Below the pieces are notes generated by a model. It was not told the origin of the DNA, ran no database searches, and was given only the letters and a program-made list of their open reading frames with translations. Shown in pieces: positions 15,695 through 60,851 of a stretch of 64,000 bases of DNA. Source of the stretch: Cordylochernes scorpioides (lineage: Eukaryota > Arthropoda > Arachnida > Pseudoscorpiones > Chernetidae); contig CP092874.1 in the NCBI GenBank assembly GCA_030710605.1, forward strand, positions 38,911,063-38,975,062. Reading direction: 5' to 3'. Every line of letters begins with the position of its first letter. Positions within the stretch are counted from its first letter, which is position 1. Made by a program: the position numbers and the translations under genes.

Positions 15695-16129
15695 TATATA
15701 TATATATATTATATTTAAGAAAAGAGATTTGATTTTCTGTTTGAATTTAGATCATGTTGAGGATTATTGTAATGGTGATGCAGTCGTGGCTAAAATCTTG
15801 AAATAAAAATAATATTGAAGATCATAGATTTCTTTATTTGAGCTGAGTAATATATATGAATAACATAATTTGATAAAAGTAATGCCTGGCTTAAGGCGTA
15901 AGAATAAAAAAAATGAAAAGAATATTTACATATTGTACAAAAGTTTTGGGTCGGCCAACGGGGAAGAACAACAATGAGATTTTATATGGTAAGCGCGACC
16001 TCTGGTGGTCGATTAAAACAGAGTATTTATATCTATGAAATTATAATTTTAAATAAAATAACATTTTAACATATAACATTTTTAAATAAAATATTTCAAT
16101 ATAACATATATATATATATTAATATATAT

Positions 16130-16410: not shown

Positions 16411-16411
16411 T

Positions 16412-19930: not shown

Positions 19931-20347
19931 TCAGTTTTCCAAAGCTGGTGTTGTGGCTTTGTCACCCGACTGATATGTGGAGACGGCGCTCAGTTCTAGC
20001 GTTTTTTTTTTTAGGTAGAGGCGATCTTTATTTTTAAAAATCAATATCCTCCCGATAAAATTTCTATCCATATAAAACATATACAATGTTTTCATTGGTG
20101 GCATCCATCGCGGGAAATATTCCACCACACATTTGATAGACCGCGAGAGTTCTTTCACACAGAGTGGTACAGTTGTGTCGATGTGGTCGTTCACATTGTC
20201 CACCTCATTGGCGAGGAGAAACGGACTCCCGCGCCATGTAGGATCACTGGCGGTGGGTCTGCCTTGAGTTTTGAACTCTTGGGTATTTGCTCTGTGTGCG
20301 CGCGATTGGGAGCGTCCTTGCCGAACGCGTCATGGAATACCAAGGTG
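19931..20347 (-). pseudogene. Unidentified repeat-derived coding fragment
   Basis: A minus-strand 90-codon frame (from 20203) with 'HIDTTVPLCVKELSRSIKCV' and 'FPRWMPPMKTLYMFYMDRNF'. Part of the DNA ('acaatgttttcattggtggc') recurs at about 27478-27510, so it is an interspersed repeat. The surrounding GC-rich sequence runs to the mariner insertion point at 20348. No family recognised. Confidence 0.3.
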
Positions 20348-20349
20348 TA

Positions 20350-21673
20350 CTACTCTGATCAAAAAGTTTCGACACTTTGCACATAAAATCCTGAAAATTC
20401 AATATATTTTCTCCCGGTTTGTGGCAAACGCAAGCGTCGCCCTTTTGGCTTGGAGACCTGCCAATTTCAAAATTCACGCGCCACAACAGCGCGAGCAGCG
20501 CCTGTTCGAAGTGAAGCCATTTTGCCCGTGCTTCGATTTCGTTAGTCACCGAAATGGAGGATCAACGAATTTGCATCAAGTTCTGTGTGAAAAAGGATTC
20601 AAGGGTGCCGAAATTTTTTGGATGTTGCAAACAGCCTACGGGGATGCCGTCATGAGCCGAAGACGAGTTTTCGAGTGGTACAAGCGCTTCAAGGAGGGTC
20701 GGAAAGAGACCGCCGACAACGAGCGTTCCGGGAGACCGTCCACATCAACCACGCCTGAAAAGGTGACCAAGGTGTTGGAACTGGTGCGTGAAGACCGACG
20801 AATAACTGTCAGGGAGGTCGCCGAAGAAGCAGGGATATCATTCGGGTCGACTCAATCGATAATGAAGGACATTTTGGGAGTGAGAAAACTCAACGCCGCG
20901 TTCTCGTTCCCAAAGATTCGACTTTTGATCAAAAGAACGCCCGGAAAGAAACGGCCAGTCTCAATCTCGAAGCGACAACCGACGACCCCGAATTGCTGAA
21001 GAGGGTCATTACTGGAGACGAAACATGGATTTACGGCTTTGATTCGGAAGCTACCCAACAGGCATCGGAGTGGCGCTTCAAAAATGAGCAGAGACCAAAG
21101 AAAGCGAGGAAGGCTCCCAGCAAAGTCAAGGTCATGTTGACGGTGTTCTTCGACTGCCAGGGCATCGTTCATCATCAATTTCAACAACAAGGCTCTACAA
21201 TAACTGCTGACTCCTACCTGGGAGTTTTAAGGCGATTGAGGGAAGCGATCAGGCAGAAACGGCCGGAGCTGTGGAGGAGCAAGTCGTGGATTCTCCACCA
21301 CGATAACGCGCCGGCGCACACAGCCCTCAAAATCTCGAAGTTCCTGCAGGACCACTCAACCTCTGTATTCCCCCAACCCCCCTACAGTCCCGATTTGGTC
21401 CCCTGCGACTTCTTCCTTTTTGGAAAGCTCAAAAAAAGTTGAAGGGTTGGCAATTTCAGAGCATAAAAGAGATCAAAGTGGAATCGAAGAAGGCCATGAA
21501 GGCGATCCCGAAAACAGACTACCAGAGGTGTTTTGCCGACTGGAAAAAAAGGTGGCTGAAGTGCATCGCGGCCAACGGGGACTACTTTGAAGAGAACAAT
21601 TTGAATTTCGTAGAATAATAAAGTTTTTTTTTTAACTTATGAGCAAAGTGTCGAAACATTTTGATCAGTGTAG
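20350..21673 (+). mobile_element. mariner transposon, 1324 bp, complete ends
   Basis: Left TIR 'ctactctgatcaaaaagttt' continues 'cgacactttgc'; the right end is the complement ('gcaaagtgtcgaaaca..tgatcagtgtag'). TA flanks both sides (20348-20349, 21674-21675). Length and layout are typical of mariner. It interrupts a GC-rich region that continues on both sides. Confidence 0.9.
20554..21618 (+). pseudogene. mariner transposase (DD34D), three frameshifts
   Basis: The enzyme would bind the TIRs and cut and paste the element. ATG at 20554 ('MEDQRICIKFCVKK'). The first shift is at an A run near 20595. The main frame then has the helix-turn-helix region 'GRPSTSTTPEKV..VREDRR' and 'VREVAEEAGIS'. The second shift lies near 20920-20990. 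Next come the catalytic blocks 'VITGDETWIYGF' (first Asp), 'WILHHDNAPAHTAL' (second Asp) and 'YSPDLVPCDFFLFG' (third Asp, 34 residues after the second). A third shift at an A7 run (about 21430) precedes the C-terminus 'NGDYFEENNLNFVE'. All three Asp are present, so damage is by indels only, two of them at homopolymers; sequencing error should be excluded. Confidence 0.9.
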
Positions 21674-25895: not shown

Positions 25896-26613
25896 TGTAG
25901 CAAAGTATTTATTTTTTATTTACAGATAGTGAATTTTGTTGTTTATATTGTAGGAAAGTATTTATTATTTTATTAACATAGTATTATTTTTATGCTTATA
26001 TTTTGCTACACTGTAAACTTCCCTCATTGCTTATCTTTTGTTTATCATTCATAGTTTGTTCTTGCCTGAAATAAATTTCTGTGTCATCCCGAAGTTTGTC
26101 TTTCCTAATTTTCCATGTGGCAATATTTTGCTACTCTGTTTAACTTCCCTCATTACTTATATTTTTATCAATTATAGTTTATTCTTGCCTGAAATAAATT
26201 TCTGTGTCATCCCGAAGTTTGTCTTTCCTAATTTTCCATGTGGCAATATTTTGCTACTCTGTTTAACTTCCCTCATTACTTATATTTTTATCAATTATAG
26301 TTTGTTCTTGCCCTAAATAAATTTCTGTGTCATCCTGAAGTTTGTCTTTCCTAATTTTCCATGTGGCAATATTTTGCTACTCTGTTTAACTTCCCTCATT
26401 ACTTATATTTTTATCAATTATAGTTTGTTCTTGCCTTAAATAAATTTCTGTGTCATCCTGAAGTCTGTCTTTCCTAATTTTCCATGTGGCAATATTTTGC
26501 AAGTCTGTAAACTTCCCTCATTACTTATATTTTTATCAATTATAGTTTGCTCTTGCCTTAAATAAATTTCTGTGTCATCCTGAAGTCTGTCTTTCCTAAT
26601 TTTCCATGTTACA
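25896..26613 (+). mobile_element. Solo LTR with internal 122-bp tandem expansion
   Basis: Starts TGTAGCAAAGTATTTATT, ends 'ttttccatgttaca', flanked by ATAT on both sides (25892-25895, 26614-26617). It is the same LTR as 35387-35557 and 36749-36926 (171-178 bp), but the block 'gtttgttcttgcctgaaata' to 'cttatatttttatcaatta' is repeated five times (starts near 26055, 26177, 26299, 26421, 26545), giving 718 bp. Each unit carries an AATAAA-like site. Confidence 0.75.
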
Positions 26614-26973
26614 ATATTAATGTGGAAACATCAGACTTCCAGTATCTAACTTTCGGGTATGAAAGCCTTTCTGTAGCTATATCCTATGGCACAATACCTG
26701 TCTTATCCATAGAACCTCTAGTCACACCTCAAAGTCCCTCTCATGTCCAACAGACAACTCGTAAATAACTGACGAACACATAATCCAGGCGTTAGAATCA
26801 ATTAAGATATTGTTGGGGTGTAATTAGGAAAGCTAATGAGGAAATTTGATTAATTAGGGTCACAGGGGGAATTTACTGAATAGTTAGCTGGGCTTCTCTG
26901 TTTTGATAGTAAAACGCCATATAATTTAACTCCCGAAAGAATTTAGAAACAATATTATGTCGGTATACTAAAT

Positions 26974-28104: not shown

Positions 28105-29163
28105 ATGGAGACAAACGAGATTCGTGCTGTAATAAAATATCTTTGTAAGAAAGTAATGTCGCCGAAGGAAATCTATGAGGATATGGTGGGTACATTAAGG
28201 GAAGATGCTCCTTCCTATAGCACAGTAAAAAATGGGTAGCTGCGTTTAAATTAGGGAGGATCAGCATCGAAGACGAACATCGACCAGGAAGACCTGTTGA
28301 GTCAGTTACTCAAGGAAACATCGACAAGATACATGTTTTGGTTATGTTGGACAGAATAATGACAGTTCGTCGGATAGAAGAGACCTTGGGTATTCTAAAA
28401 ACAACAGTGGATCGGATTATGAGAGAACACTTGGGCCACAGGAAGCTTTCTGCCCGTTGGGTTCTCAAACTTTTGATACCCGATCAAAAGGCTGTAAGGA
28501 GAAAGTTATTTTCGAACAATCTTGCGTTATTTGAAGCCAACCCAGAGGAATTTGTCAGTAGATTTGTTACCATGGATGAAACTTGGGTCCATCACTTTAC
28601 ACCAGAGGCCAAGCAACAATCCATGCAATGGAGATACTCCGGTTCCCCCCCCCCCCCCCCCCCCCAAGAAAGCCAAGACAGTTCCATCAGCAGGGAAGGT
28701 TATGGTGTCTGTCTTTTGAGATTCCGAGGGTGTACTTCTTCTAGACTTTCTGAATAAGGATCAAACCATCACTGGCAATTATTATGCAAATCTTGTGAAG
28801 CAACTACGAGGAGCTATCAAGGAAAAGAGAAGAAGAATGTTGTCCAGGAAGATTGTTTACCATCAAGACAATGCTCCGAGTCATCGGTTGCTGCAAGCCA
28901 TGGCTACTATTTATGATTCTGGCTTTGAACCTTTACCACATGCACCCTATTCACCAGATCTAGCTCCGTCTAACTTCCACCTATAACCTCATTTGAAAAA
29001 TTCACATTCTGGCATTCATTTTAGGTCAGATGAAGAGGACATTGATACTGTAATCTCATTTTTTGAGTCACTTGAAACATCGTTCTTTTTGGAGGGCATA
29101 AAAGCATTAGAACATCGCTGGAAAAAGTATATAGACCTTGAAGGGGATTATGTTGAAATATAA
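28105..29163 (+). pseudogene. mariner transposase with Asn at third catalytic site
   Basis: ATG at 28105 ('METNEIRAVIKYLCKK'). A one-base loss near 28228 shifts the frame, after which 'GRISIEDEHRPGRPVESVT' and 'GHRKLSARWVLKLLIPDQK' follow. Catalytic blocks: 'VTMDETWVHHFTPEAKQQS' (first Asp), 'IVYHQDNAPSHRLLQA' (second Asp), 'YSPDLAPSNFHL' (third position Asn instead of Asp), then a stop where Phe/Leu is normal. A 21-C run (28645-28665) shifts the frame mid-domain, and a TGA replaces the usual Trp near 28720. It ends 'RWKKYIDLEGDYVEI'. Dead by several lesions; the Asp-to-Asn change alone would abolish normal cutting. Confidence 0.9.
28645..28665 (+). repeat. Poly-C run (21 C) inside the transposase
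   Basis: Expanded from the short Pro-coding C tract usual at this position ('GS-P-RKKAKT' region). It is unstable by nature; its true length needs long-read support. Confidence 0.8.
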
Positions 29164-39895: not shown

Positions 39896-41160
39896 TAGGT
39901 TTTGAGGGATTTGTAAAAGAAGCCACAACAAATATTATATAAATAGCATCGGACATTGTAAGGTTTCATGTAAAGGCTCCATCATTTCCCCAAAAAAATC
40001 AGAAGGAGTCTTTTCACTCAAGTGTAAGGAACATTTTTTTTTGCTGCTCTAACCATGTCAACCTTTGTGCCAACAAAACACAATTTGCGGGAAGCGCTGC
40101 TTTTATATTTTAATTTGAAGAAAAGTGCAGCTGATGGACATCGATTGCTGTGTGAGGCATATGGGGAACATACTCTATCAATAAAAGCATGTGAGTACTG
40201 GTTTCGGGGTTTCAAAAGTTGCGATTTTTGACACCAGAGACAAAGAACGCGGAGAGAGGCCAAAAAAGTTCGAAGACGCTGAGTTGGAGGCTTTATTGGA
40301 CGAAGATTCAAGCCGAACTCAAGAGGAGCACGCTGAAACCTTGGGAGTGACTCAACAAGCGATTTCGAACAGTCTCAAGGTCATGGGTATGGTGCAAAAA
40401 CAAGGAAATTGGGTCCCATATGAACTCAAGCCAGGAAACATCGAGCGCCGTATTTGCACGTGAGAACTACTGCTCAAAAGACAAAATCGGAAGGGTTTTT
40501 TGCATCGAATCGTGACGGGGGACGAAAAGTGGATTCACTACGACAACCCAAAGCGTAGAAAATCGTGGGGTAAGCCCGGTCATGCATCAACTTCAACGGC
40601 CAAACCGAATATTCATGGCAAGAAGCTAATGCTGTGCATCTGGTGGGATCAGCTCGGAGTAATCTACTATGAGCTACTTCAGCCCAACGAAACCATCACT
40701 GGAGAACGTTACCAACAACAATTGATGCGATTAAGCCGAGCATTGAAGATCAAACGCCCACTATATGCCAAAAGACATGACAAGGTGATCTATCAGCACG
40801 ACAACGCTCGGCCACATGTTGCAAAAGTTGTCAAGGAGACTTTTGAGGCGCTTCAATGGGATGTCCTACCCCACCCGCCGTATTCACCAGACATTGCTCC
40901 TTCAGACTACCACATGTTCCGTTCGATGAGACATGGCCTGGCCGAGCAGCACTTTACTTCTTACGAAGAGGCGAAAAATTGGGTGGATGTTTGGATCGCC
41001 TCAAAAAAACGAGGAATATTTTCGACAAGGAATCCGTATGCTGCCTGAAAGATGGGAAAAAGTCGTAGCTAAAGATGGACAATACTTTGAATGAAAAATA
41101 CTGTACTGATTTCTCTGAATAAAGCTTCGAATTTATAAAAAAAATCCCTCAAAACTAATA
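39896..41160 (+). mobile_element. mariner transposon, about 1.27 kb
   Basis: The left end 'taggttttgagggatttgta' and right end 'aaatccctcaaaactaata' form inverted repeats of ~17 bp. The exact TA duplication is less clear than for the others. Confidence 0.75.
40055..41094 (+). pseudogene. mariner transposase, intact DDD, shifted twice
   Basis: ATG at 40055 ('MSTFVPTKHNLREALLLYF'), then 'LSIKACEYWFRGFKSCDF'. A one-base insertion near 40230 moves the frame into 'DTRDKERGERPKKFEDAELE' and 'VTQQAISNSLKVMG' (helix-turn-helix). A TGA replaces Cys near 40461. Catalytic part: 'RIVTGDEKWIHYDNPKRRKS', 'IYQHDNARPHVAKVV', 'PYSPDIAPSDYHMFRSM', all three Asp present. A shift in an A7 run near 41008 precedes 'MLPERWEKVV' and 'DGQYFE' stop. 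Few lesions: the youngest-looking mariner here apart from the 20350 one, and a different lineage. Confidence 0.9.
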
Positions 41161-41638: not shown

Positions 41639-42419
41639 TGAAATAAAGGTTGAAGTCCTGGTAGCTCTTGTTGTACTGTGTTGACCAAGAGGAACAGTCA
41701 GGATGTAGAGTTTTCCAGTACCTCTCTGCACCTTGGAAGACCTTTAAAAGTTCTCACAAAATACAGGCAGTCGTGGTCGAGGCAGAGTGGAAAAGCTTAG
41801 GGATATCCACACAAAAAACGAAGACACAATTGCACTAAGAAAGTTCCGTTAACAGATAAAAGTTGAGCTAGAAGCGCAAGATGGAGATAGACGAGTTCTT
41901 CCCAACTACATGTTGGATGAGATCGACATAACATACGACCGACGCGGCTTGCACTAAGGGTGAACTAAAATCAACTGAGCTGAACTCAACTGAACTGTCA
42001 AGAGTCTGTAAGGTGATGATTTATAGGTTAAAGACGGGGCGACCTTATGTGACAGGGGCGTTTCTGAGAAAGGGGGCCCTTACCTGCCCAGGTGTGAGAG
42101 GGGTCTCTGCATTCCACCACATGTGACAGTGTGGGTGGCCTTGTCGTGGAAATTGTAAATCTACCTGATTTATGACTTCCATCTTTAGACTTTGCTATTT
42201 TGGCAAACCTATATGCTCGATCTCTGCTTTAGCTCAACCATTAAATCTATTACAGATTTTATTTATTTATCTTCAATTTGTACAAAGTACATTACATATG
42301 GCGATGCAATGACACAGATTAATCATGAGCATAATTATTTATAGATGTGTTTCTATATACAACATGACAATCTTGTTATAAGTAATTATAGAATATAGGG
42401 TTGTTGGTTTAAATTACCA
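41639..42419. repeat. Element 1 left terminal repeat (781 bp)
   Basis: TG..CA ends. Contains 'gaccttatgtgacaggggcg' and a run with 'aaatctattacagattttat'. Confidence 0.75.
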
Positions 42420-42483
42420 TAGATGAGCCCCGGGAGTGAAAGGGTTTATCCGGGTTTAGGCGGGTAAAGCCTCTCTAACACAG

Positions 42484-42489
42484 GTAAGT
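42484..42489 (+). promoter_or_regulatory. Conserved splice-donor-like site, plus strand
   Basis: CACAG|GTAAGT sits ~65 nt inside the left terminal repeat of element 1 and recurs at 47934 in element 2. A strong donor match by sequence; use unproven. Confidence 0.35.
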
Positions 42490-42654
42490 AATTAAAATTT
42501 CTTTTAATTAATTTAAACTGTGAGGGTTAAAAAGGGCTATAACAAGATGATATTTGTTGGATATATAAAAGTGAAATAAAAATGACATTTTGTGTGATTA
42601 ACAAAAAAGATGATTAAAATAAAATGATGTTCTAAGAGATTGTTGGCGGGCGTT

Positions 42655-43010
42655 GGAAAGTGTTAGGAATTAAAGAATAAGCAATTGTGAGATTTACACA
42701 TGCAATCAAATACTTAGGTCCAGGTGCAAAGCGAGTAATTGACTTGAGCCTCTTCCTAGGCAATGTTTCACCTGTGATCCTGTATAGGGTAACAGTGCTT
42801 TGTCACAATTGTAGTGTTATTGGGTTGAAAAGTTGTTGAAGAATATGCAATTGTTAGAATTGCACATGTAAACCAAATACTCAGATCCAGGTGCAAAGCG
42901 AGGATATAGACTTGAGCTGTCTTCCTTGGCAATGTTTCTCTTGCGATCCTATATAAGGGTTACAGTGCTTTGTCACAATTTTAGGATTATTGGGTTAAAA
43001 GTTGCTGAAG
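42655..43010. repeat. Internal ~180-bp tandem duplication (element 1)
   Basis: Two units with 'aggtgcaaagcgag', 'ggcaatgttt', 'acagtgctttgtcacaatt' and 'attgggttgaaaagttg'. The same two-unit arrangement is in element 2 at 48110-48470, so it predates both insertions. Confidence 0.75.
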
Positions 43011-45668
43011 AAAAGTTGTTTATTTATATGATTGGGAAAGGAGTGAAATAGAGCCATGCGATAAGTAGAATTGTAGCGACAGTAGGTGATCTGACTTGAC
43101 TCGAAATCAAAGGTTGAATGTGGTCCGCTAGAGCTGAAAAAAAAAGTTGAAAGTTGAAAAAAGTGAACGCTTTGTGAATGCGTTGGTGATTTGCTCTGCG
43201 GATGAAATGAAATAAACTCTTGAAGCTTGTTCAGACCAGAAGTTTGGATTTGTAAGTCTGGGGAACTGTGTTCAAGGCGTTTGTTGAATTACGAAATCAA
43301 AAATAAATTGTCAAGCAGTGCTGTCGTTTTTCTACGTTGATGTGACGCAATGACTGAAAAGATAGTGATGAAAAATATAGGGAATTGGTTAAAGAATAAG
43401 ATTGTTGAAAACGATTGTTGTAGATGCCCGATAGTGGATGATAAACATTGTCAGATAATAAAGGTATTTAAACAAATATAAAATATAGTGAATAAAAATA
43501 TAGAAATATGATTGCGGGTACAAAAAGTGTAAGTGGATAAAATTAAACCTGTAATATATAAAATATATAATATATAATAAAATAAAAATAAATTTTTGAA
43601 ACAATTAGATGTTTTACAATACTAAAATAATATCATGAAAAATAAAAGTAAATTTGATTAAAGTTTTTTTTTTGTTCAACGTTGGATTATTAAAAATTTG
43701 ATTATATAATTGAAAGGTGAAAATAAAAATAATTATTCAAGATTTTATACAAAAATTCAAATATAATTAAAGGTTATTAATGATTGGATAAATTTTAAGT
43801 AGTGTAAAATTGAACAAAAATTGTCTCTTTTTAAGAAAAGTTACAGTTGTGGTGTGTGACTAGATCATATCCCTTTGGTAAACATCGGTGTTTTGATGAT
43901 TCTCTGAAGCGGGAATATGTGAAATGATCCCTTCGTTTGTCCACAATGTTGGTATGTAGAGAATGATTTCTCTTTCGCGTTATAAAGTCTATATAAGACA
44001 ACCAAATTGTTTTAATTGGTGTTATCAATTAACATGTAAAATGTTTAATGTATGTTGTGTGTGTTGTGATATCTCGTTGGTGAGATTCTCGAGGAAATCT
44101 AAATGATTAGTATGAAACATGTGTTCAAACTAGCGTCATGTAGCTAACGGTCAAGATGACTGCTTGAGGGGGGAGAGAAGATATTCTCAAAAGATAACAG
44201 TGACCAAGGGAGTGACGTCATAAAGAGCGTCCACTTCCTTTTTTTCACGGAAATTCTATTTGTGGGGTGGTCACACGTGCGGGGTGTTTATTTTCTGTCT
44301 TACTTGAAACTGACTTTCTCCTTTTGTTGAGTTGGCAATTTACTGTTATAATTGAAAAATATGATTTTCTCGGTGTTCGTAGTTGTTGTGTTTCGAAATC
44401 AGTTTAGACTTAGTAAAATTGTTATACGATGATTTCAGGCTAGAAGTGAGTGAAAGATATGACTTTCGACGTGGACACGCTTTGAGGTGAGAAGTGTCAC
44501 AGGCGTGAAGGGCGTCTTTGGCCTGAAAAGTGAGAAAAGTTTTGTTGTGTTGCCTTGTGACACTTGTGAAGTGAATTGAATGGAAAGGTGTCACGTGAAA
44601 TCATAGTTTGGTACAAAATCTAACCTGTTTCACCATAAATAACAAATTTAATAAAGTCATGGGTGATGGTTGTATGAAACACATCGAGAATTTTTGACTG
44701 TTAGTGGATATGGCATGCTTAATGTGAATTTTTTTTATTGTGGCGACGATATAGAGCTAAGTGGAGCTCGAAATTGGATTTGTGTGTTAAGTCGCGCACT
44801 AAAAATTGTTGCCAATTGGAGAAGGTTATGTGTGAGGGTGTTGTAACGTTTGTTGAGAGAGATTTATTGATGCTTAATTATGCATGTAAAAAGTAGAGAC
44901 GAGGGAGTGTATCTAAGTTAGAATAAAATGTTGTTAATAAGTTTGGTAGGTTGTGACCTAATTTAGCTACTGGCAATAAAGTGGAGGGAATCTTTATTTT
45001 CAACTTGTTTTGGGAAAGATAGTTGTTTTCCCTAGTGGTGTTTTTGAAGATATTGTATCTTCCGATTTTTACAATTAAAAAAAATGCGTTTCACCTATGT
45101 TAATTTATATTTAAAATTTGAATATACTTATTAAATTGCTGATTATGGTAGTTAAAATGATTCTTTTAAAAGGGCAATGTCGTGAGAGTTACCAATAATT
45201 TGAATTGGACGCTTACTTAAAATGGTGAACATTACCAAATTTTAAGAATTGATAAAGATATTGGTCTTTTGGTATAAAGATAACTAATAAGTAAAACAAA
45301 AATAAGTTTAGTATTATGATGAATGAGAGATTTTAAGAAATAATAATAATGATTTTTTTTTTAAGTTGTAGATTTGGATAATATTATTATAGGTGAATTT
45401 AAGAACGACATGTAAGATTGGCAAATTTGTAAAAATGCGTGATGGGTGATTAATAAAATTGAGAGTAATAACTTGAAATTTATAATCTGATTAAAAATTA
45501 AAATAAATTTGATAAATGAGAGTGTGAAAGTTTTAAAATTTGAATAAAAAATGATATAAAAAAGGTAAAAATTGATTTTAAAATGCTTAAAGTGAAAATA
45601 TAAATACAAAATTTATGGGGAATCAAGTTGTAAAGTTGAGGATGAGGTTAAGGTAGGTTTTTTTAAAA

Positions 45669-45674
45669 ACTTAC
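45669..45674 (-). promoter_or_regulatory. Conserved splice-donor-like site, minus strand
   Basis: Minus-strand T|GTAAGT at the downstream end of the minus-strand reading frame region; also present at 51144-51149 in element 2 (plus-strand acttac). Confidence 0.35.
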
Positions 45675-45815
45675 AATTTTGAAGATAGTTCAATCAGGAG
45701 ACGTGTTCTTTGGTTGTTTTCCTGTTGACGTGGTAGTCGCTCCATGTTGGACTTGTAGAAGCTTGTAGATTTTGTGAAGTTGATTTGCAGGTTGTTGCCT
45801 TGAGCATTGTCTCGA

Positions 45816-46103
45816 CTATGTCAGGTCGAAGGTGAAGAACTTCTCACAGGGTTTGGGCCACATCGCTGCTCGGTTTCCATGTCTTGTGGGATTTTCGGCT
45901 GTGTCGTTGGGGTGGTCAGCTTGCTCCTGGCGTTGGCGATCGGTTAGCGGGTATGCGGAAGTCCGTTGGGGCGGCGTTTCTTCCGTAAATATCTTGGGGA
46001 GAGATTGCTTGGACGTTTCGTTGGAATGGTCGGGCTTGTTCCTCCATCTTCGCTCTTTCTCGCTTCCTATCTGAACAGTCTTCTTACCTCTTCGTTGTGT
46101 CAT
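45816..46103 (-). CDS. Element 1 minus-strand ORF, 95 codons
   Basis: Starts 'MTQRRGKKTVQIGSEKERRW', rich in Arg, Lys, Gln and Thr, with 'TEETPPQRTSAYPLTDRQRQ'. The start lies ~28 nt from the terminal repeat, the usual place for a gag-like leader. It stops at 'FFTFDLT'; the element 2 copy runs on to 151 codons, so this copy is truncated by a stop and later shifts. No known domain recognised. Confidence 0.3.
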   Translation of the reverse strand: MTQRRGKKTVQIGSEKERRWRNKPDHSNETSKQSLPKIFTEETPPQRTSAYPLTDRQRQEQADHPNDTAENPTRHGNRAAMWPKPCEKFFTFDLT

Positions 46104-46131
46104 CCTTCGTTTTGGTCATCCTGTCGACTAC

Positions 46132-46912
46132 TGAAATAAAGGTTGAAGTCCTGGTAGCTCTTGTTGTACTGTGTTGACCAAGAGGAACAGTCAGGATGTA
46201 GAGTTTTCCAGTACCTCTCTGCACCTTGGAAGACCTTTAAAAGTTCTCACAAAATACAGGCAGTCGTGGTCGAGGCAGAGTGGAAAAGCTTGGGGATATC
46301 CACACAAAAAACGAAGACACAATTGCACTAAGAAAGTTCCGTTAACAGATAAAAGTTGAGCTAGAAGCGCAAGATGGAGATAGACGAGTTCTTCCCAACT
46401 ACATGTTGGATGAGATCGACATAACATACGACCGACGCGGCTTGCACTAAGGGTGAACTAAAATCAACTGAGCTGAACTCAACTGAACTGTCAAGAGACT
46501 GTAAGGTGATGATTTATAGGTTAAAGACGGGGCGACCTTATGTGACAGGGGCGTTTCTGAGAAAGGGGGCCCTTACCTGCCCAGGTGTGAGAGGGGTCTC
46601 TGCATTCCACCACATGTGACAGTGTGGGTGGCCTTGTCGTGGGAATTGTAAATCTACCTGATTTATGACTTCCATCTTTAGACTTTGCTATTTTGGCAAT
46701 ACTATATGCTCGATCTCTGCTTTAGCTCAACCATTAAATCTATTACAGATTTTATTTATTTATCTTCAATTTGTACAAAGTACATTACATATGGCGATGC
46801 AATGACACAGATTAATCATGCGCATAATTATTTATAGATGTGTTTCTATATACAACATGACAATCTTGTTATAAGTAATTATACAATATAGGGTTGTTGG
46901 TTTAAATTACCA
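46132..46912. repeat. Element 1 right terminal repeat (781 bp)
   Basis: Nearly identical to the left repeat of element 1, more so than to element 2 repeats (for example 'ggaaaagctt' here and in the left repeat, 'ggaaagctgg' in element 2). Confidence 0.75.
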
Positions 46913-46938
46913 TATATATAAATGTGATGAGTTGAGTT

Positions 46939-47859
46939 GCTGTCGACTTATCTGTGATGAGATCCTGTCGACTCATGTAATGAAGATGAGAATTCCAGTA
47001 GCTTTTGTAGAGATCCTGTCGACTCATGTAATAAGAGATCTCCTGTCGACTCACTGTAATAATTTGTTGAGTTTGATGTCGACTACTGAAATGATATTTG
47101 AAGTCCTGGTAGCTCTTGTTGTACTGTGTTGACCGAGAGGAACAGTCAGGATGTAGAGTTTTCCAGTACCTCTCTGCACCTTGGAAGACCTTTAAAAGTT
47201 CTCACAAAATACAGGCAGTCGTGGTCGAGGCAGAGTGGAAAGCTGGGGATATCCACACAAAAAACGAAGACACAGTTGCACTAAGAAAGTTCCGTAACAG
47301 ATAAAAGTTGAGCCAGGAGCGAAAGATGGAGACATAGAAGTTTCTTGCTCGTCTACATGATAGTTGAGATCGACATAAGGTACGACCGACGTGAGCTGAC
47401 GCTAAAGGTGAACTAAACTCAACTGACCGAACTGTACTGAGCTGTCAAGCCACTGTAAGGTGATGATTTATAGGTTAAAGACGGGGTGACCTTATGTGAC
47501 AGGGGCGTTTGAGAAAGGGCGCCTTTACCTGTCCAGGTGTGAGAGGGGTCTCTGCATTCCACCACATGTGACAGTGTGGGTGGCCTGTCGTGGGAACTGT
47601 GAATCTACCTGATTTATGACTCCCATCTTTAGACTCTGTTGTTTTGGCAATTCTATGCTCGATCTCTGCTTTAGCTCAACTATTAAATCTATTACAGATT
47701 TTATTTATTTATCCACTTTGTACAAATTACATTACATAGGTGATGCAATGACACAGATTAATCATGCGCATAATTATTTATAGATGTGTCTCTATATACA
47801 ACATGACAATCTTGTTATAAGTTATCTACACAATATGAGGTTGTTGTTTTAAATTACCA
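46939..47859. repeat. Element 2 left terminal repeat (~0.92 kb)
   Basis: Begins with four to five loose copies of 'cctgtcgactcatgtaat' (46939-47087), then the same ~773-bp core as element 1. Confidence 0.65.
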
Positions 47860-47933
47860 TAGATGGGCCCCGGGAGTGAAAGGGTTTATCCGGGTTTAGG
47901 CGGGTAAAGCCTCTCTAACACAGGTAAGTAATT

Positions 47934-47939
47934 AAAATT
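47934..47939 (+). promoter_or_regulatory. Conserved splice-donor-like site (element 2)
   Basis: CACAG|GTAAGT, same place as 42484 in element 1. Confidence 0.35.
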
Positions 47940-48109
47940 CCTTTTAATTAATTTAAACTGTGAGGGTTAAAAAGGCTATAACAAGATGATATTGGTTGGA
48001 TATATAAAAGTGAAATAAAAATGACATTTTGTTTGATTAACAAAAAAGATGATTAAAATAAAATGATGACATAAAAATTCACATTCTAAGAGAATATTGG
48101 TGGGCGTTG

Positions 48110-48470
48110 GACAGGGTTAGTAGTTAAAGAATAAGCAATTGTGAGATTTACACATGCAATCAAATACTTAGGTCCAGGTGCAAAGCGAGGATATGGACTT
48201 AAGCGTCTTCCTAGGCAATGTTTTACCTGTGATCCTGTATAGGGTAACAGTGCTTTGTCACAATTGTAGTGTTATTGGGTTGAAAAGTTGTTGAAGAATA
48301 TGTAATTGTTAGAAGTGCCCATGTAAACCAAATACTCAGATCCAGGTGCAAAGCGAGGATATAGACTTGAGCTGTCTTCCTTGGCAATGTTTCACTTGCG
48401 ATCCCATATAAGGGTTACAGTGTTTTGTCACAATTTTAGGATTATTGGGTTAAAAGTTGTTGAAGAAAAG
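48110..48470. repeat. Internal ~180-bp tandem duplication (element 2)
   Basis: Same two-unit duplication as 42655-43010, each unit matching its counterpart more closely than its neighbour. Confidence 0.75.
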
Positions 48471-51120
48471 TTGCTTATTAATATGATTGAGAAAGGAGTG
48501 AAATAGAGCCATGCGATAAGTAGAATTGTAGCGACAGTAGGTGATCTGACTTGACTCGAAATCAAAGGTTGAATGTGGTCCGCTAGAGCTGAAAAAAAAA
48601 GTTGAAAGTTGAAAAAAGTGAACGCTTTGTGTATGCGTTGGTGATTTGCTCTGCGGATGAAATGAAATAAACTCTTGAAGCTTGTTCAGACCAGAAGTTT
48701 GGATTGGTAAGTCTGGGGAACGGTGTTCAAGGAGTTTGTTGAATTACGAAATCAAAAAATAAATTGTCAAGCAGTGCTGTCGTTTTTCTACTTTGATGTG
48801 ACGCAATGACTGAAAAGATAGTGATGAAAAATATAGGGAATTGGTTAAAGAATATGATTGTTGAAAACGATTGTTGTAGATGCCCGATAGTGGATGATAA
48901 ACTTTGTCAGATAATAAAGGTATTTAAACAAATAAAATATAGTGAATAGAAATATAGAAATATGATTGCGGGTACAAAAAGTGTAAGTGGACAAAATTAA
49001 ACCTGTAATATATAAAATATATAATAAATAATAAAATAAAAATAATTTTTGAAACAATTAGATGTTTTACAATACTAGAATAATATCATGAAAAATAAAA
49101 GTAAATTTGATTAAAGGTTTTTTTTTTTTTTTAAATGTTGGATTAAAAAATTTGTTTATATAATTGAAAGGTAAGAATAAGAATAATTATTCAAGATTTT
49201 ATACAAAATTTATAATATAATTGAAGGTTATTAATGATTGGATAAATTTTAAATAGTGTAAAATTGAACAAAAATTGTCTCTTTTGACGAAAAGTTACAG
49301 TTGTGGTGTGTGACTAGATTATATCCCTTTGGTAACATCGGTGTTTCTATGACTCTGAAACTGGGAATATGTGCAATGATCTTTTCGTTTGTCCTCAATG
49401 CTGGCATGTAGAGAATGATTTCTCTTTCGCGTTAAAAAGTCTGAGATTTAACCAAATTGTTTTAATTGGTGTTATCAATTAACATGTAAAATGTTTAAAG
49501 CATGTTGTGTTGTGATATCTCGTTGGTGAGATTTGTGAGATTCTCGAGGAAATCTAAATGAGTAGTGTGACACATGTGTTCAAAATGGCGTCATGAAGCT
49601 AGCGGTCAAGAAGATCTGCCTTGAGGGGGAAGAGAGAAGATATTCTCAAAAGGTAGTAGTGACCAGGGGAGTGACGTCATAAAGGGCGGTCACTTCCTTT
49701 TTTCACGGAAATTCTATTTTTGGGGTGGTCACACGTGCGGGGTGTTTATTTTCTGTCTTACTTGAAACTGCTTTTCTCTCTCTCTCTCTTCTTTTGTTGA
49801 GTTTGGCAATTTTCTGCTATAATTGAGAGATATGATTTTCTCGGTGTTCGTAGTTGTTAAGACTTAGTAAAAATGTTATCCGATGATTTCAGGCCAGAAG
49901 TGAGTGAAAGATATGACTTTCGACGTGGACACGTTTTGGGATGAATTGTGGTGTCACAGGCGTGGTGAAGGCGTCTTTGGCCTGAAAAGTGAAAAAGTTT
50001 TGTGGTGTGGCACTGTAACACGAAGTGAGAAATGTGAATAAAAAGGTGTCACGTGAAGTCTTAGTTTGGTACAAATCTAACCTGTTTCCATGAATAACAA
50101 ATTTAATAAAGTCATGGGTGGTTGTTGTATGAAACACATCGAGAGAATATTTGACTGTTAGTGGATGTGGCACGCTTAATGTGAAATTATTTTATTGTGG
50201 CGACGATATAGAGCTAAGTGGAGCTCGAAATTGGATTTGTGTGTTGAGTCGCGCACTAATAATTGTTGCCAATTTTAGATAGTGATGCGAGGGTGTTGTA
50301 AGGTTTTTTGAAAGAAATGTGTTGATGACCAATCATGCATGTAAAAAGGAAAAGACGAGGGAGTGTATTTATCCTCGAATATTAACGATTGTAATCGTTT
50401 TGGAAGGCTGTGACTTAAATTAGCTACTGGCGGTGAAGTGGAGTGAATCTTTATTCCTAACTTGTTTTGGGAAAGATAGTTGTTTTCCCTAGTGGTGTTT
50501 TTGAAGATATTGTATCTTCCGATTTTTGCAATTAAAAAAAAAATGCGTTTCACCTATGTTAATTTATATTTAAAATTTGAATATACTTTTTAAATTGTTG
50601 ATTATGATAATTAAAATGATTCTTATAAAAGGGCAATGTCGTGAGAGTTACAAATAATTTGAATTGGGCGCTTACTTAAAATGGTGAACATTACCAAATT
50701 TTAAGAATTGATAAAGATATTGGTCTTTTGATATAAAGATAACTAATAAGTAAAACAAAAATAAGTTGAGAATTATGATGAATGAGATTTTTTTTTAAAT
50801 AATAATAATGAATTTTTTTTTTTCAAGTCGTAGCTTTGGATAATGCCATTTTAGGTAAATTTAGGAAAGGCATGTAAGATTAGTAAATTAGTAAAAATGC
50901 GTGATGGGCGATTTTTTTTTTAAAGTAAAATTGAGAGTAATAACTTGAAATTTATAATCTGATTAAAAATTAAAGTAAATTTGATCAATGAAAATGTGAA
51001 AGTTTTAAAAATTGAATTAAAAAATGGTATAAAAAAGGTAAAAATTGATTTTAAAATGCTTAAAGTGAAAATATAAATACAAAATTTATAGGGAATCAAG
51101 TTTTGAACTTGAGGATAAAG

Positions 51121-51576
51121 TTAAGGTAGGTTTTTTTTTTTAAACTTACAGTTGTGTGAAAGTTCAGTCAGGAAACTTGGTCTTGGCTTGTATTCCTGCT
51201 GACGTTGAAGACGCTCCATGTAGAGCTTGTAGACGCTTGTAGCTTCTGTGAAGTTGATTGTGGCTTGTTGCCTTGAGCATTGTCTCGAAGATGTCAGATC
51301 GAAGGTGGAGAACTTGTCACAGGGTTTGGGCCACATCGCTGCTCGGTTTCCATGTCTTGTGGGATTTTTTGCTGTGTCGTTGGGGTGGTCAGCTTGCTCT
51401 TGGCGTTGGCGATCGGTTAGCGGGTATGCGGAAGTCCGTTGGGGCGGCGTTTCTTCCGTAAATATCTTGGGGAGAGATTGCTTGGACGTTTCGTTGGAAT
51501 GGTCGGGCTTGTTCCTCCATCTTCGCTCTTTCTCACTTCCTATCTGAACAGTCTTCTTACCTCTTCGTTGTGTCAT
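51121..51576 (-). CDS. Element 2 minus-strand ORF, 151 codons
   Basis: The longest reading frame in the pair. 'MTQRRGKKTVQIGSEKERRW', 'RTSAYPLTDRQRQEQADHPN', 'HGNRAAMWPKPCDKFSTFDL', then 'SVYKLYMERLQRQQEYKPRP'. Basic and glutamine-rich, no membrane segment, no zinc knuckle. A GTAAGT donor lies just inside its 3' end (51144), so translation might continue after splicing. The first ~95 codons are conserved in element 1. It could be a gag-like remnant, or an open frame by chance in C-rich minus-strand sequence. Confidence 0.35.
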   Translation of the reverse strand: MTQRRGKKTVQIGSEKERRWRNKPDHSNETSKQSLPKIFTEETPPQRTSAYPLTDRQRQEQADHPNDTAKNPTRHGNRAAMWPKPCDKFSTFDLTSSRQCSRQQATINFTEATSVYKLYMERLQRQQEYKPRPSFLTELSHNCKFKKKNLP

Positions 51577-51592
51577 CCTTCGTTTTGGTCAT

Positions 51593-52514
51593 CCTGTCGA
51601 CTACTGAAATAATGTTGATCCTGTCGACTCATGTAATGAAGATGAGAATTCCAGTAGCTTTTGTAGAGATCCTGTCGACTCATGTAATAAGAGATCTCCT
51701 GTCGACTCACTGTAATAATTTGTTGAGTTTGATGTCGACTACTGAAATGATATTTGAAGTCCTGGTAGCTCTTGTTGTACTGTGTTGACCGAGAGGAACA
51801 GTCAGGATGTAGAGTTTTCCAGTACCTCTCTGCACCTTGGAAGACCTTTAAAAGTTCTCACAAAATACAGGCAGTCGTGGTCGAGGCAGAGTGGAAAGCT
51901 GGGGATATCCACACAAAAAACGAAGACACAGTTGCACTAAGAAAGTTCCGTAACAGATAAAAGTTGAGCCAGGAGCGAAAGATGGAGACATAGAAGTTTC
52001 TTGCTCGTCTACATGATAGTTGAGATCGACATAAGGTACGACCGACGTGGGTGACGCTAAGGGTGAACTAAACTCAACTGACCGAACTGTACTGAGCTGT
52101 CAAGCCACTGTAAGGTGATGATTTATAGGTTAAAGACGGGGTGACCTTATGTGACAGGGGCGTTTGAGAAAGGGCGCCTTTACCTGTCCAGGTGTGAGAG
52201 GGGTCTCTGCATTCCACCACATGTGACAGTGTGGGTGGCCTGTCGTGGGAACTGTGAATCTACCTGATTTATGACTCCCATCTTTAGACTCTGTTGTTTT
52301 GGCAATTCTATGCTCGATCTCTGCTTTAGCTCAACTATTAAATCTATTACAGATTTTATTTATTTATCCACTTTGTACAAATTACATTACATAGGTGATG
52401 CAATGACACAGATTAATCATGCGCATAATTATTTATATATGTGTCTCTATATACAACATGACAATCTTGTTATAAGTTATCTACACAATATGAGGTTGTT
52501 GTTTTAAATTACCA
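51593..52514. repeat. Element 2 right terminal repeat (~0.92 kb)
   Basis: TGTCGACT-rich start (51593-51742) and core 51743-52514; differs from the left repeat of element 2 at only a few places ('gtgagctgacg'/'gtgggtgacg'). Confidence 0.7.
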
Positions 52515-52539
52515 TATATATATATATATATTAGTAATG

Positions 52540-55344: not shown

Positions 55345-56185
55345 GAATGCCGTTGCTGTTGTTGTCGTGTCCATTAAAGAGTCTCAGATGTCTCCATGCA
55401 TCTCCATCACAGCAACAGCAATATCCACTATCTTGGGTGTGTAAAGCTGCTGCTCTGGGTCTGTGTCAATTTTCTGCAAGGCTGCGGCCATTTCTGGGTA
55501 TGAGAATATGTGGGTAGGTGTTAGTTCCACTAAGGACAGTTGTTGCATGTCCTATAGGTTCTTGTGCCATCTGGATGTATTGTCATTCCTTTATAGAGTG
55601 TTTTGTTCTAAGTCTTGTTATAGGTTTTGTCATTTTTCTCTCAGAGTTTATTTAGCATTTTGATCTTTTCTTATTTTTTGTTTAATTATCTTGTATTTTG
55701 ACAAAGCATCAGCGTCAAATAATGACATTTGTTCTTTCCTTTGGCCCAACTTTCTGGCTTCCTTAGCCAATTCAAATGCCATTTCATTACCCCCGATCCC
55801 AACATGGGCAGGAATCCTTTGTAGAATGCAGTTCTTCTCCAATGGTTCCAGTTGGGTAAGTAACGAGTGTATTTTCTGTGTGATTTTAGTATTGCCCTTC
55901 TGAATTGCTTCTAGAGCGGATATTGAGTCGCTGTATATTAAAATTCCTTCTGCTTGATGCAGGGATGGTTGGTTAAGGCATACATCAAGGGCTTTCCAGA
56001 TAGCTGTCAGTTCACAAGTGAAGTTTGACGAAATCTGTCCTGCTCCTTCTTTGATTTTGATGTGTGTTCCATCTTGCAGTATTATGTTAATTCCGGCCCC
56101 TCCATTACTCAGGCTAAGGTCAGAAGATCCATCTGTATATACTGTTAAAGGGGGTGACCTAGCATTTTTAATCAAGGATTTGTAC
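55345..56185 (-). mobile_element. LINE 3' half (RNase H to (CAA)n tail)
   Basis: On the minus strand RNase H (56175-55648) is followed by ~290 bp and the 3' end 'gatggagatgcatggagaca', 'gtctcagatg' complement and a 'gacaacaacagcaac' tail near 55350. The same 3' end, with (CAA)n, is inserted at 58259-58321. Confidence 0.7.
55648..56175 (-). CDS. LINE RNase H domain fragment
   Basis: A 175-codon open frame. RNase H would remove the RNA strand during reverse transcription. Acidic sites: 'LTVYTDGSSD' (first Asp), 'SNFTCELTAIWKAL' (Glu), 'GILIYSDSISALEAI' (Asp). The last block reads 'IPAHVGIGGNEMAFELAKEA', where GNE-x-A-D is expected; Phe replaces the fourth acidic residue. The initial Met is internal and the RT domain is missing upstream because of the inversion at ~56200. 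The frame is otherwise free of stops, so it is a recent copy, probably inactive for RNase H. Confidence 0.75.
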   Translation of the reverse strand: MIKNARSPPLTVYTDGSSDLSLSNGGAGINIILQDGTHIKIKEGAGQISSNFTCELTAIWKALDVCLNQPSLHQAEGILIYSDSISALEAIQKGNTKITQKIHSLLTQLEPLEKNCILQRIPAHVGIGGNEMAFELAKEARKLGQRKEQMSLFDADALSKYKIIKQKIRKDQNAK

Positions 56186-57087: not shown

Positions 57088-57727
57088 TAAAATCAAATTT
57101 GAAATAAAAGTTAAGAAAGTTGAAAAAAGGCCCGAAAGATTATTCATGACTGTAAAAATGTCACCAGCACATAATATTTTTCCAGGAAAAAATTCAATAT
57201 GAAAGAGCTAGCTTATGCATTAGAAAACACTGACCTAAACAAGACTTTTGGGCCAGATGGAATCCATAGCCAAATGATATCAAACTTGGGCAAAATTCGC
57301 AAAATCAAATTTGAAATAAAAGATAAGAAAGTTGAAAAAAAGGCCCGAAAGATTATTCATGACTGTAAAAATGTCACCAGCACATAATATTTTTCCATGA
57401 AAAAATTCAATATGAAAGAGCTAGCTTATGCATTAGAAAACACTGACCTAAACAAGACTTTTGGGCCAGATGGAATCCATAGCCAAATTATATCAAACTT
57501 GGGCAAAATTGGCAAAATCAAATTTGAAATAAAAGATAAGAAAGTTGAAAAAAGTCCCGAAAGATTATTCATGACTGTAAAAATGTCACCAGCACTCATA
57601 ATATTTTTCCCTGAAAAAATTCAATATGAAAGAGCTAGCTTATGCATTAGAAAACACTGACCTAAACAAGACTCTTGGGCCAGATGGAATACATAGCCAA
57701 ATGATATCAAACTTGGGCAAAATTGGC
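57088..57727 (+). repeat. Three tandem ~213-bp units inside the LINE
   Basis: Units start 'aaaatcaaatttgaaataaa' at about 57088, 57301 and 57513, each including 'gaaagagctagcttatgcat' and the FGPDGIHSQ coding block. They are almost identical, so the triplication is recent and postdates or accompanied insertion. Confidence 0.85.
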
Positions 57728-58258
57728 AAAGAAAGACTTCTTAATATTTTCAATAACTCCTGGAAAACTGGATAATTGCCTCAAGACTAAAAACTGCAAC
57801 AATAATTCCCATTAAAAAACTTGACAAATCTGCTGATGACCCAAAACACTACTGATCTATATCCCTCACAAGTATTTGCTGCAAATTAATGGAAAAAATT
57901 ACACTCAGACGACTCACCTACCACCTCAATACAAAAAATCTCTTACCATAAGAACAATATGGATTTAGGAAAGGACATGGGACAATAGACCAACTCTAAT
58001 TTTTCACACAAAAGGTAAAAGATGCACAAAACAGAAAACCAACTAACCACACCATAGCTGCTTTTTTAGACCTTACACAAGCTTTTGATAAAGTATGGAA
58101 AAACAAGTTAATTACAAAATTATACAAACATTTCAAAATTGATGGAAAAGCTATCACTTGGATAAATGATTTCCTTAAAAATAGATACATCAGGGTCAAA
58201 TATAATGGCACTCTATCTAAAACCTTCAAATTTTTAAAGGATTACCACAAGGATCAGT

Positions 58259-59164: not shown

Positions 59165-59980
59165 TTAGAGCTGTGGTTGTGGACTTTCCTTCCCTAAAAC
59201 CATGTTGGAAAGAGGAAAGGAGCTCATTACCTCTAGCCAGTGCTTCAGTCGCTGAGCTAGTAGGCTATCCAGAACCTTACCTAGACACGCTAGTAAAGAA
59301 AGCGGACGATAATCATTAGGAGAATTACCCTTTCTACCAGACTTTTCTAGAAGCACTACTCGGGCAACCTTCCATGCCTCAGGAAAAGTACCAGTGTCCA
59401 GGCACCTATTGAATAACCTGGCAAGAAGCGATAGGTGCATCCTCACCAGGGCTTTCACGACCGTGTTATCGATCCCGTCGGGACCAGGAGATTTCCTGTT
59501 CCCGAACTTGAAAGCCACCAGTTTCACCTTATTCTCAGAAAAGAGCGGATCCACCAAACCACAAGTGGTCAGAGAGATCTCGTCCTCTGGTTCTCGTTTC
59601 CGAAGTTCCGATCCAAGATGAGGTCCAGGGTCCTTCAGGTCCTGAGTCTTGAACCCATCTTCCCCTTCAAGTAGCCTCAAGTTAGCGGAGCACCTTATCT
59701 TCCCAGAGACAGCCCTGTAAGGGAGACCGTATGGATTAATCTCCAGTACGGTTTTGCACTGCTCCCTCCAGTGTTTCCTCTTCTCCCTTTTGGTGTGTCT
59801 CTTGTACCCTGCTAAGACCTTCTGGAAAGTTATTCTTCTCCTAACTCTCTCTTCGCCCGTACTATTCTGGAATAGTTTCCTCATGGCCCTGACTCTCTTC
59901 CTCTCGATCTCCAGCTCCTCGTTCCACCAAGGCTGTTTAAACCTTTTAAACGCGGTAACCTTTCCAGATCCAGGCCCCAA
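59165..59980 (-). pseudogene. LINE linker and N-terminal reverse transcriptase
   Basis: 271 codons: 'QPWWNEELEIERKRVRAMRK' (linker typical after LINE endonuclease), 'FGNRKSPGPDGIDNTVVKAL' (RT block 0/1), 'FPEAWKVARVVLLEKSG', 'NDYRPLSLLACLGKVLDSLL'. The frame is lost at 'FPLSNMVLGKES', where an xGFR-type motif is expected, and resumes in the next frame downstream. Confidence 0.85.
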
Positions 59981-60851
59981 GGTTTTGCACGTTGGTTATA
60001 TCCTGGTGGAGCTCATTGACCATGCTATTAATAGAAATTCTGTCAACTGCTCCAGCCAATCTATCCCCAAGTGTGCAAGCAAACCGGCGTCTGAATCTTT
60101 CAAGGTTAAGCCCCCTGATGCTGTACCGAAGAACTCTCTCCACTGATGGCGGTTCCACTTCACAACTGGTCTCAAACCTGATGAGTATGTGGTCGCTTAC
60201 GTCTGTGGGGTCCGTTTCCCACCTCAAACGCCGCATCCTGCTCGTTCTTGCCAGGGAGAAGTCTATGATGTTTTCACCGTTTTCCGTGGCAAACGTCGAT
60301 TCACCATAGACGTTCGAAATCTCCAGACTCTGACCAATAACAAGATCGACCACGCCTTTCCTTTAGAATTTTCCTCCCTGTCCCCAAACAGCTGGGTGCG
60401 CGCGTTAAAATCTCCGCCAATCAGGATCTCATGCCCTTCCTTCCCAACCAAAAAAATCATTTAGGAAGTCCAGCTTACCGAGGTCGTTGTCCTGAGGTGG
60501 TATGTACGTAGAGAGGCAGACCAGTTTCAGATCCGCCGCCTCGATCTGTACAGCCACCGCCTCCTCCCAGGACCCACAACCCAAACAAGAATCTCCCCGG
60601 ACCAGTAAGGCGGCTTTGTTGCTCTCGCTAGAGAAAAAACTGTAACGAGTATCTAGACCCATCCTCCCGTCATCCTCCAGGTACATCTCCTGCACCAGGA
60701 TAACATGAGGGCGATCACTTTTAATGATCCGGTCTAGCTCCTCGGAGCTCCTCCTCGAAAGAGCGCAATTTAGCTGCACGAACCTCCACACCTCCTTGTT
60801 TTGCCCCTCTACCATCGCCTCCCGTTCACGTACCAGGCCTTCACCGAGCAC
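59946..60851 (-). pseudogene. LINE endonuclease (APE-like), frameshifted
   Basis: First frame (60851-60429): 'FVQLNCALSRRSSEELDRII', 'VILVQEMYLEDDGRMG' (catalytic Glu). Second (60460-60263): 'ILIGGDFNARTQLFGDREE' (Asp-x-Asn). Third (60353-59946): 'SNVYGESTFATENGENIIDF', 'DPTDVSDHILIRFET' (Ser-Asp-His). All key residues survive but lie in three frames. The enzyme would nick target DNA to prime reverse transcription. Confidence 0.8.

Follow-up and report, generated by a model that had tools for sequence, protein, structure and literature searches.

LARD-like, very probably non-autonomous Ty3/gypsy LTR retrotransposons and their pol-bearing relatives in the pseudoscorpion Cordylochernes scorpioides

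Large retrotransposon derivatives (LARDs) are known mainly from plants. Like them, the family described here from C. scorpioides possesses LTRs, a long conserved non-coding interior, no gag-pol and a high copy number; unlike them, it shows no canonical polypurine tract, retains the decayed start of a first reading frame and has an identified pol-bearing parent family. The cqUNK elements of Culex quinquefasciatus are likewise non-autonomous arthropod LTR elements with tandem repeats and no coding sequence; their authors report no master copies (PMC3286476), whereas pol-bearing relatives accompany the present family. PbTRIM of the ant Pogonomyrmex barbatus is another non-autonomous arthropod LTR element with TA-rich targets, and its commonest target duplication is ATAT. 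However, it measures 480-781 bp with LTRs of 152-184 bp, and carries a primer site of ~15 nt for tRNA-Leu and a polypurine tract (PMC3532108). The animal Helenus elements resemble our family in being non-autonomous and in having primer sites common to gypsy elements, but they are TRIMs with 4-bp duplications and a tRNA-like sequence in the LTR, in contrast to the TATA-type promoter found here (PMC10886601). Troyka, likewise an unusual retroelement, was considered as an identity and set aside, because it has 3-bp duplications and CG..CG ends, unlike the present family (PMC12440569).

Two adjacent copies and their dispersal in the genome

The window is the whole stretch of 64,000 nucleotides analysed (contig CP092874.1, positions 38,911,063 to 38,975,062). 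It contains two copies with the following parts.

41639-46914, minus strand: copy 1, whole element (minus taken as the sense strand)
46132-46914, minus strand: 5' LTR of copy 1 (sense orientation), 99.1% identical to 41639-42421
41639-42421, minus strand: 3' LTR of copy 1 (sense orientation), left edge TATATA followed by TGAAATAAAGG
46921-52516, minus strand: copy 2, whole element, left edge uncertain
51617-52516, minus strand: 5' LTR of copy 2 (sense orientation), 99.6% identical to 46961-47861
46961-47861, minus strand: 3' LTR of copy 2 (sense orientation), repeat partner of 51617-52516
46913-46918, no strand: TATATA between copies 1 and 2, target sequence common to both insertions

The copies lie head-to-tail, only ~6-50 bp apart, with interiors of 3.7-3.9 kb. 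Alignment of the four terminal repeats gives 99.1% identity over 783 bp in copy 1 and 99.6% over 901 bp in copy 2, and 90.7-91.3% between the copies (90.5% for entire units). The repeats are therefore closer within than between copies, each LTR matching its own partner, as the initial annotation had described for two separate retroelement insertions. The two copies are independent insertions into one (TA)n target. The left edge of copy 2 (~46921) is inexact because the repeats of this copy start inside a variable array. Reverse transcriptase, integrase and protease were found in neither copy. Pfam gave no domain in the three element frames submitted, and 11 pol proteins or pieces used as tblastn queries had no match in the two window copies and 18 other main-family copies, which bears out the earlier observation that pol is missing inside the copies. 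Rfam returned no family above threshold on the element, with two sub-threshold matches at E 4.4.

The family is abundant and dispersed. The interior search produced 6,598 first-look candidates; all 40 places that were scored were positive (39 besides the query copy), and they lie on 19 of 24 contigs. Exact LTR/interior junctions number 2,081 genome-wide, against 0 for the control, and LTR ends come to about 9,000. Both LTRs flank the interior in 18 of 20 fetched copies. As in LTR retrotransposons, the direct LTRs are alike within each copy, with a K2P divergence of 0-1.74% and a median of 0.39% (20 copies, namely 18 fetched and the two in the window). A second head-to-tail pair was found at L014, where the neighbouring LTR is 91% and the own partner 99.9% identical, with TATATA between. 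No gap below 5 kb occurs among the first 100 exact junctions listed on C1, so such pairs are not frequent. Probe L050, which gave no hits, sits in a LINE-like insertion (L054, named by eye).

All 19 edges that could be resolved by hand carry direct repeats of 5 bp (29 loci examined, ten edges not resolvable). The tally leaves out L024 and L011, the latter with an insert that we take to be a Tigger-like DNA transposon. The sixth base agrees at 15 of the 19 edges, and 4 bp is equally possible. A first reading of 6 bp was dropped because L012, L014, L082 and L084 mismatch at the sixth base. At L053 and L086 the apparent edges lack such a repeat. The TG..CA ends that had been proposed need correction: on the plus strand the right end reads CCA with an almost invariant TA after it, so that the target duplication is 4-5 bp and not a clean 6 bp beside TG..CA.

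Sense strand, promoter and primer-binding site

46512-46520, minus strand: TATA box CCTATAAAT of the copy 1 5' LTR, initiator TCAGT ~33 bases downstream
46118-46129, minus strand: copy 1 primer-binding site AGTCGACAGGAT, the complement of tRNA-Ser as encoded in this genome
51591-51602, minus strand: copy 2 primer-binding site adjoining the leader, tRNA-Ser complement

Of 20 copies, 19 have TATAWA paired with TCAGT at a spacing of 24-40 bases in minus sense, and none has the pair in plus sense. A leader-adjacent primer site with at least 12 bases complementary to tRNA-Ser, as found in LTR retrotransposons, is present in 19 of 20 copies; nine sites match one isoacceptor form and ten the other, and the site of L009 differs by one base. 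The statement that neither strand gives a convincing primer-binding site was thus wrong, since the minus-strand LTR is followed by this 12-nt match. The match does not include the last six bases of tRNA-Ser, and of the five tRNA-Ser genes fetched, two end in a different 3' form with a poorer match. A plus-strand site of the Copia type for initiator-Met was set aside, with ~8 matching bases judged by eye. We infer that minus is the sense strand of the elements.

Further primer-site-like units are arrayed at the U5 end.

51603-51745, minus strand: array of extra primer-site-like units of copy 2, with three exact 12-mers including the leader-adjacent one
46941-47090, minus strand: counterpart of this array at the copy's other LTR, outermost units different

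A tentative reading, to which we give somewhat less than an even chance, is that primer sites form a fast-evolving tandem array at the U5 end, with a shortened tRNA-Ser primer and a moving LTR edge. Each unit would combine a fossil LTR end with 12 bases complementary to tRNA-Ser, and the primer would be a tRNA-Ser lacking six 3' bases. Any unit could prime, which would shift the LTR edge, and misaligned strand transfer between units would make the array grow or shrink. We know of no 3'-shortened tRNA primers in Ty3/gypsy elements. They are reported for some Copia lineages (PMC10886601). A literature search on multiple or duplicated primer sites showed no such case among the papers listed.

Interior of the elements and pol-bearing relatives

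45917-46131, minus strand: leader plus decayed beginning of the first (gag-position) frame, 74-75% DNA identity to the pol-bearing relatives L090 and L091
45816-46115, minus strand: reading frame MTQRRG.., called by gene predictors, without conservation at the protein level
42422-44320, minus strand: 3' non-coding region (~1.9 kb), common to pol-bearing relatives
42670-43012, plus strand: tandem pair of ~175-bp units inside the 3' region
42481-42489, plus strand: splice-donor-like CAGGTAAGT, antisense to the elements, present in every one of 20 copies at interior offset 59

Interiors measure 3.65-4.09 kb, and pairwise identity in their first 1 kb is 0.97-0.99 among 20 copies, dropping to 0.62 at 44922-45021; as in LARDs, the long non-coding interior is conserved among copies. 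We rejected the MTQRRG frame as a protein-coding sequence, since copies carry frameshifts and stops (an internal stop or a length not divisible by 3 in 12 of 20). Six gene models at other genomic sites rest on the same frame. In the five copies checked, neither end shows a canonical polypurine tract, in agreement with the initial annotation; the best purine run is AGAGAGG, ~48 bases from the LTR. This lack looks like a family trait, because the pol-bearing relatives share the same 3' region.

The pol-bearing relative that had been sought was found in the same genome. Relatives with Ty3/gypsy reverse transcriptase, RNase H and integrase, all in minus sense, share with the window copies the LTR ends, primer site, leader, first-frame start and ~1.9 kb 3' non-coding region. 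Seventy-six pol copies were scored, at 96-100%. Gypsy pol in minus sense occurs in the middle piece of each of two long LTR pairs, with RVT_1 in L089 and RNase H, H2C2 and rve in order in L088 (pieces of two different copies). The 5' piece of one long LTR pair has the last 31 LTR bases (97%), the same primer site, the leader and an open first frame. At the protein level the first-frame start of copy 1 matches L090 and L091 at only 46% over 35 aa (E 0.01-0.04); the frame that follows the leader is open for 163 aa in L091 and 180 aa in L090, as far as read. It is a putative gag, named by its position only, and no Pfam gag domain was found in the relatives' gene models P0007 and P0016. At the other end, window positions 42600-44320 have matches of 92-93% at three of the 40 interior places, each with pol 202 bp beyond, and INT 17-413 matches L092 at 86%. 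Four collinear pol scraps are kept in L053 inside the same kind of LTRs. Window positions 44320-45917 were traced to no part of the relatives. The nearest named pol matches are spider proteins of the transposon 17.6, 297 and opus-like types. BEL pol is plentiful in the genome, but BEL was set aside as partner: the 11 places listed for it on C1 are all more than 20 kb from any listed family place, a weak test.

Origin of the elements and alternative explanations

Both elements are very probably non-autonomous Ty3/gypsy LTR retrotransposons lying on the minus strand and presumably mobilised in trans. Judged from their sequence, the window copies are LARD-like non-autonomous derivatives that keep a decayed first-frame start and lack pol, in keeping with the LARD-like family proposed initially. 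RNA from the minus-strand LTR promoter would be packaged and reverse-transcribed, and the product would integrate at TA-rich sites. The proteins for these steps would presumably be supplied by the pol-bearing relatives, which are candidate trans partners.

The elements could instead form an undescribed class of their own, with terminal repeats but unrelated to pol-bearing elements. This would accord with the missing pol and polypurine tract and with the empty Pfam and Rfam searches, but we regard it as extremely unlikely. The parts shared with pol elements from LTR ends to 3' region already refute it, unless all pol copies are nested, and pol scraps persist in L053. The suggestions of a different class and of something undescribed accordingly fall, because Ty3/gypsy relatives in the same genome share these parts; a match to a known element class had been named beforehand as the result that would count against novelty. 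Equally hard to credit is a single element that was duplicated locally in tandem, or an artefact of assembly. The close head-to-tail order would fit it, but LTRs pair within and not across copies, L014 repeats the arrangement, and the family is spread over many chromosomes, so that local duplication alone does not describe it.

An improbable, though less remote, alternative takes plus as the sense strand of a spliced long non-coding RNA element with CAGGTAAGT as donor and a G-rich intron. The fixed position of the donor and a GC skew of 0.29-0.35 in 20 interiors speak for it; against it, the TATA/initiator pair never occurs in plus sense, and pol, first frame and primer site are all in minus sense. 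A plus-strand transcript might coexist as antisense RNA with the minus-sense, non-autonomous Ty3/gypsy elements that we favour.

These elements provide a chelicerate case of a large pol-less LTR family with pol-bearing relatives in one genome, and the shared LTR ends, primer site and 3' region make parasitism in trans testable. The leader exon of the family is also entering annotations as host genes. Which site was used for each insertion may be recorded in the primer-site arrays, and these may show how elements change or multiply their primers.

Terminal repeats, dispersion and insertion edges

Two head-to-tail units occupy window 41639-52516, copy 1 (41639-46914) and copy 2 (about 46921-52516), and are separated by TATATA. 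Self-comparison puts the identity of the terminal repeats at 99.1% and 99.6% inside each unit, and at about 91% from one unit to the other. Alignment of all four repeats groups them unit by unit, and in the pair of copy 2 alone the left end of the repeat holds an array. Because the repeats pair within units and only copy 2 has the array, we read the pattern as two separate insertions and not as a duplicated unit, in agreement with the initial annotation. TATATA also lies between L014, another family copy, and its neighbor, whose LTR is 91% identical, compared with 99.9% for L014's own pair. A third adjacent pair is a candidate by appearance among the 100 LTR ends listed. Other features of the window are as follows.

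40464-41048, + strand: mariner-type transposase fragment (PF01359), directly left of copy 1
20268-21442 and 28221-28757: other mariner-like frames, recognized by eye
4897-5301, + strand: Copia-type RT fragment (RVT_2)
55648-56184, - strand: RNase H frame
59165-59995, - strand: weak RVT_1 match below cut-off, in the GC-rich right end
16118-17106, 25998-26618 and 57089-57730: tandem repeats (period about 57, 124 and 213 bp; self-comparison)
16908-16976, + strand: tRNA-like match (Rfam RF00005, 34.8 bits; no ARAGORN call), possibly a tRNA-derived repeat

The genome of Cordylochernes scorpioides (2.62 Gb, 24 contigs; window at C12:38911063-38975062) was searched with the interior, giving 6,598 first-look candidates. 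Every one of the 40 places scored is a match, 39 of them besides the query copy, with long matches at 89-95%; the listing is incomplete, as copy 2 of the window is missing from it. Genome-wide, 2,081 instances of the exact 31-base LTR/interior junction were counted (control, 0). These junctions, and matches spread over 19 of the 24 contigs, show a dispersed family and not the purely local duplication that the initial annotation had set against it. The 12-base LTR end occurs 8,967 times (control, 1,212), which makes it probable that many LTRs are solo or partial. Matches to the non-coding family interior were obtained for 39 of 40 junction probes, the remaining one being a LINE-like piece; at least two of the 40 probed junctions (34.44 and 79.61 Mb) sit in pol-bearing copies, and thus the probe by itself is no proof of a pol-less copy. 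Among the first 100 exact junctions on C1 there is clustering on a scale of tens of kb, with six gaps below 30 kb versus 1.7 expected if uniform, and none below 5 kb.

Twenty copies were fetched: the 19 places ranking next below the query copy, and one lower-ranked place on C24. Both LTRs flank the interior in 18 of them; L011 has a nested insert and a far LTR extending beyond the fetched stretch, and a single flanking LTR was seen in L024. LTR cores without any difference in two of the 18 complete copies, together with 914 identical bases in the LTRs of the subfamily copy L053, indicate recent insertion.

Edges were inspected in 29 loci, comprising the 18 complete copies, the two window copies, L053 and eight further loci (L011 and L024 excluded). 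A 5-bp direct repeat is present at all 19 edges matched by hand, and the sixth base also agrees in 15. With TA-rich targets and a TA after CCA in nearly every case, 4 and 5 bp are indistinguishable. The ten loci not matched by hand are L021, L022, L026, window copy 2, L053, L080, L081, L083, L085 and L086, of which L085 has no LTR match whatever and L053 and L086 display no direct repeat at their apparent edges. An automatic scan, with some edges misplaced, returned a 6-mer in 12 of 21. The older-looking L080, L081 and L082 (C1:34459290, 35403415 and 43403595) carry CATATA, not TATATA, after the LTR end.

Sense strand and primer-binding site

Of 20 copies, 19 have TATAWA followed by TCAGT at 24-40 bases in the minus sense of the LTR; none has the pair in the plus sense. 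Adjoining the LTR in minus sense are CA, two to four variable bases and AGYCGACAGGAT. Using a tRNA query, tRNA-Ser genes were located in the same genome, and five were fetched with these 3' ends.

ATCCTGTCGGCTGCG: one gene, TGA anticodon
ATCCTGTCGACTGCG: two genes, AGA anticodon
ATCCTGCCGGCTGCG: two genes, TGA anticodon

The 12-base site is the exact complement of the first two forms. A match of at least 12 bases to one or the other was found at 19 of 20 leader-adjacent sites (nine TGA, ten AGA), which overturns the earlier impression that neither strand offers a convincing primer-binding site. The leader-adjacent site of L009, a copy whose row in the 20-copy scoring used an inner unit, differs by one base. 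Among 20,000 shuffles the maximum was 11 and never 12, a guide and not a probability, as the sites were chosen by motif. By tRNA numbering, the match ends where an 18-base primer site would end, but the first six bases of a full site are absent. The details of priming are inferred from this anatomy.

In 21 copies the U5 end carries one to four exact 12-base units. In L018, L019 and L023 one LTR has its integrated edge at an inner unit of the array, which is longer in the other LTR. L016, L021, L026 and window copy 2 have arrays that differ between the two LTRs in other ways, and recombination could also explain these differences.

Coding potential and pol-bearing relatives

The longest interior frames, 99 and 155 aa, are near the Markov-1 expectation (medians 107-108, 95% points 152-158). 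The leader frame beginning MTQRRG (window 45816-46115, - strand) is disrupted in 12 of the 20 copies and occurs in six gene models, three named transposase-related by their sources. The annotated protein of P0002, a gene model from the 64.6-Mb contig, has the leader frame running on into a signal-peptide-like start (MLVVLLLVSLAAVSVRGHG..), possibly through LTR-driven exonisation or as a predictor artefact. On the plus strand the interiors of the 20 copies are rich in G (skew 0.29-0.35). An antisense-strand splice donor, CAGGTAAGT (window 42481-42489, + strand), keeps its offset in all 20 copies, suggesting conservation of an antisense transcript, or another constraint.

Two pairs of LTR ends on C1, among those listed, are spaced 6.4 and 7.1 kb apart and the others 3.8-5.2 kb. 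The search for a pol-bearing relative, suggested in the initial annotation, found gypsy pol in the middle pieces of both long pairs, RNase H and integrase in L088 and RT in L089, both reading in the minus sense of the family. In the second pair, the 5' piece L091 contains the last 31 bases of the LTR (97%), CA-GT-AGCCGACAGGAT, the leader and an open frame from MEEQ. The DNA of window 45917-46131 has 75% identity to L091 and 74% to the corresponding part of L090, from the first pair; at protein level the window's match to the MEEQ frame is weak, with 46% over 35 aa and E 0.01-0.04. This first frame, similar to the beginning of gene model P0007 (81-93%), is called gag by position; no Pfam gag domain was found in gene models P0007 or P0016. 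The positional label and the weak protein match lower our confidence by a hair, and we still hold it very probable that the window elements are non-autonomous Ty3/gypsy derivatives.

Against the whole genome, L088 gave 84,039 first-look candidates and at least 76 copies at 96-100%, itself included. No stop lies within the match in 60 of the 76 scored (counted from the table), and three are 202 bp from interior places with 92-93% identity to window 42600-44320. Of the six pol copies listed on C1, four are followed 1.8-2.1 kb downstream by a family junction in matching orientation and two are not. L053 retains four collinear scraps of this pol inside its LTRs, and such scraps are absent from the 20 main-family copies. 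The LTR end, leader and 3' region shared with the pol copies, with the scraps in L053, argue that these elements of the window are derivatives lacking gag and pol, and not the different class that the initial annotation offered as one alternative. Outside C. scorpioides, the nearest named relatives are proteins of spiders that bear the names transposon 17.6, 297 and opus. From their anatomy, the pol-less window elements would be transcribed and mobilised in trans.
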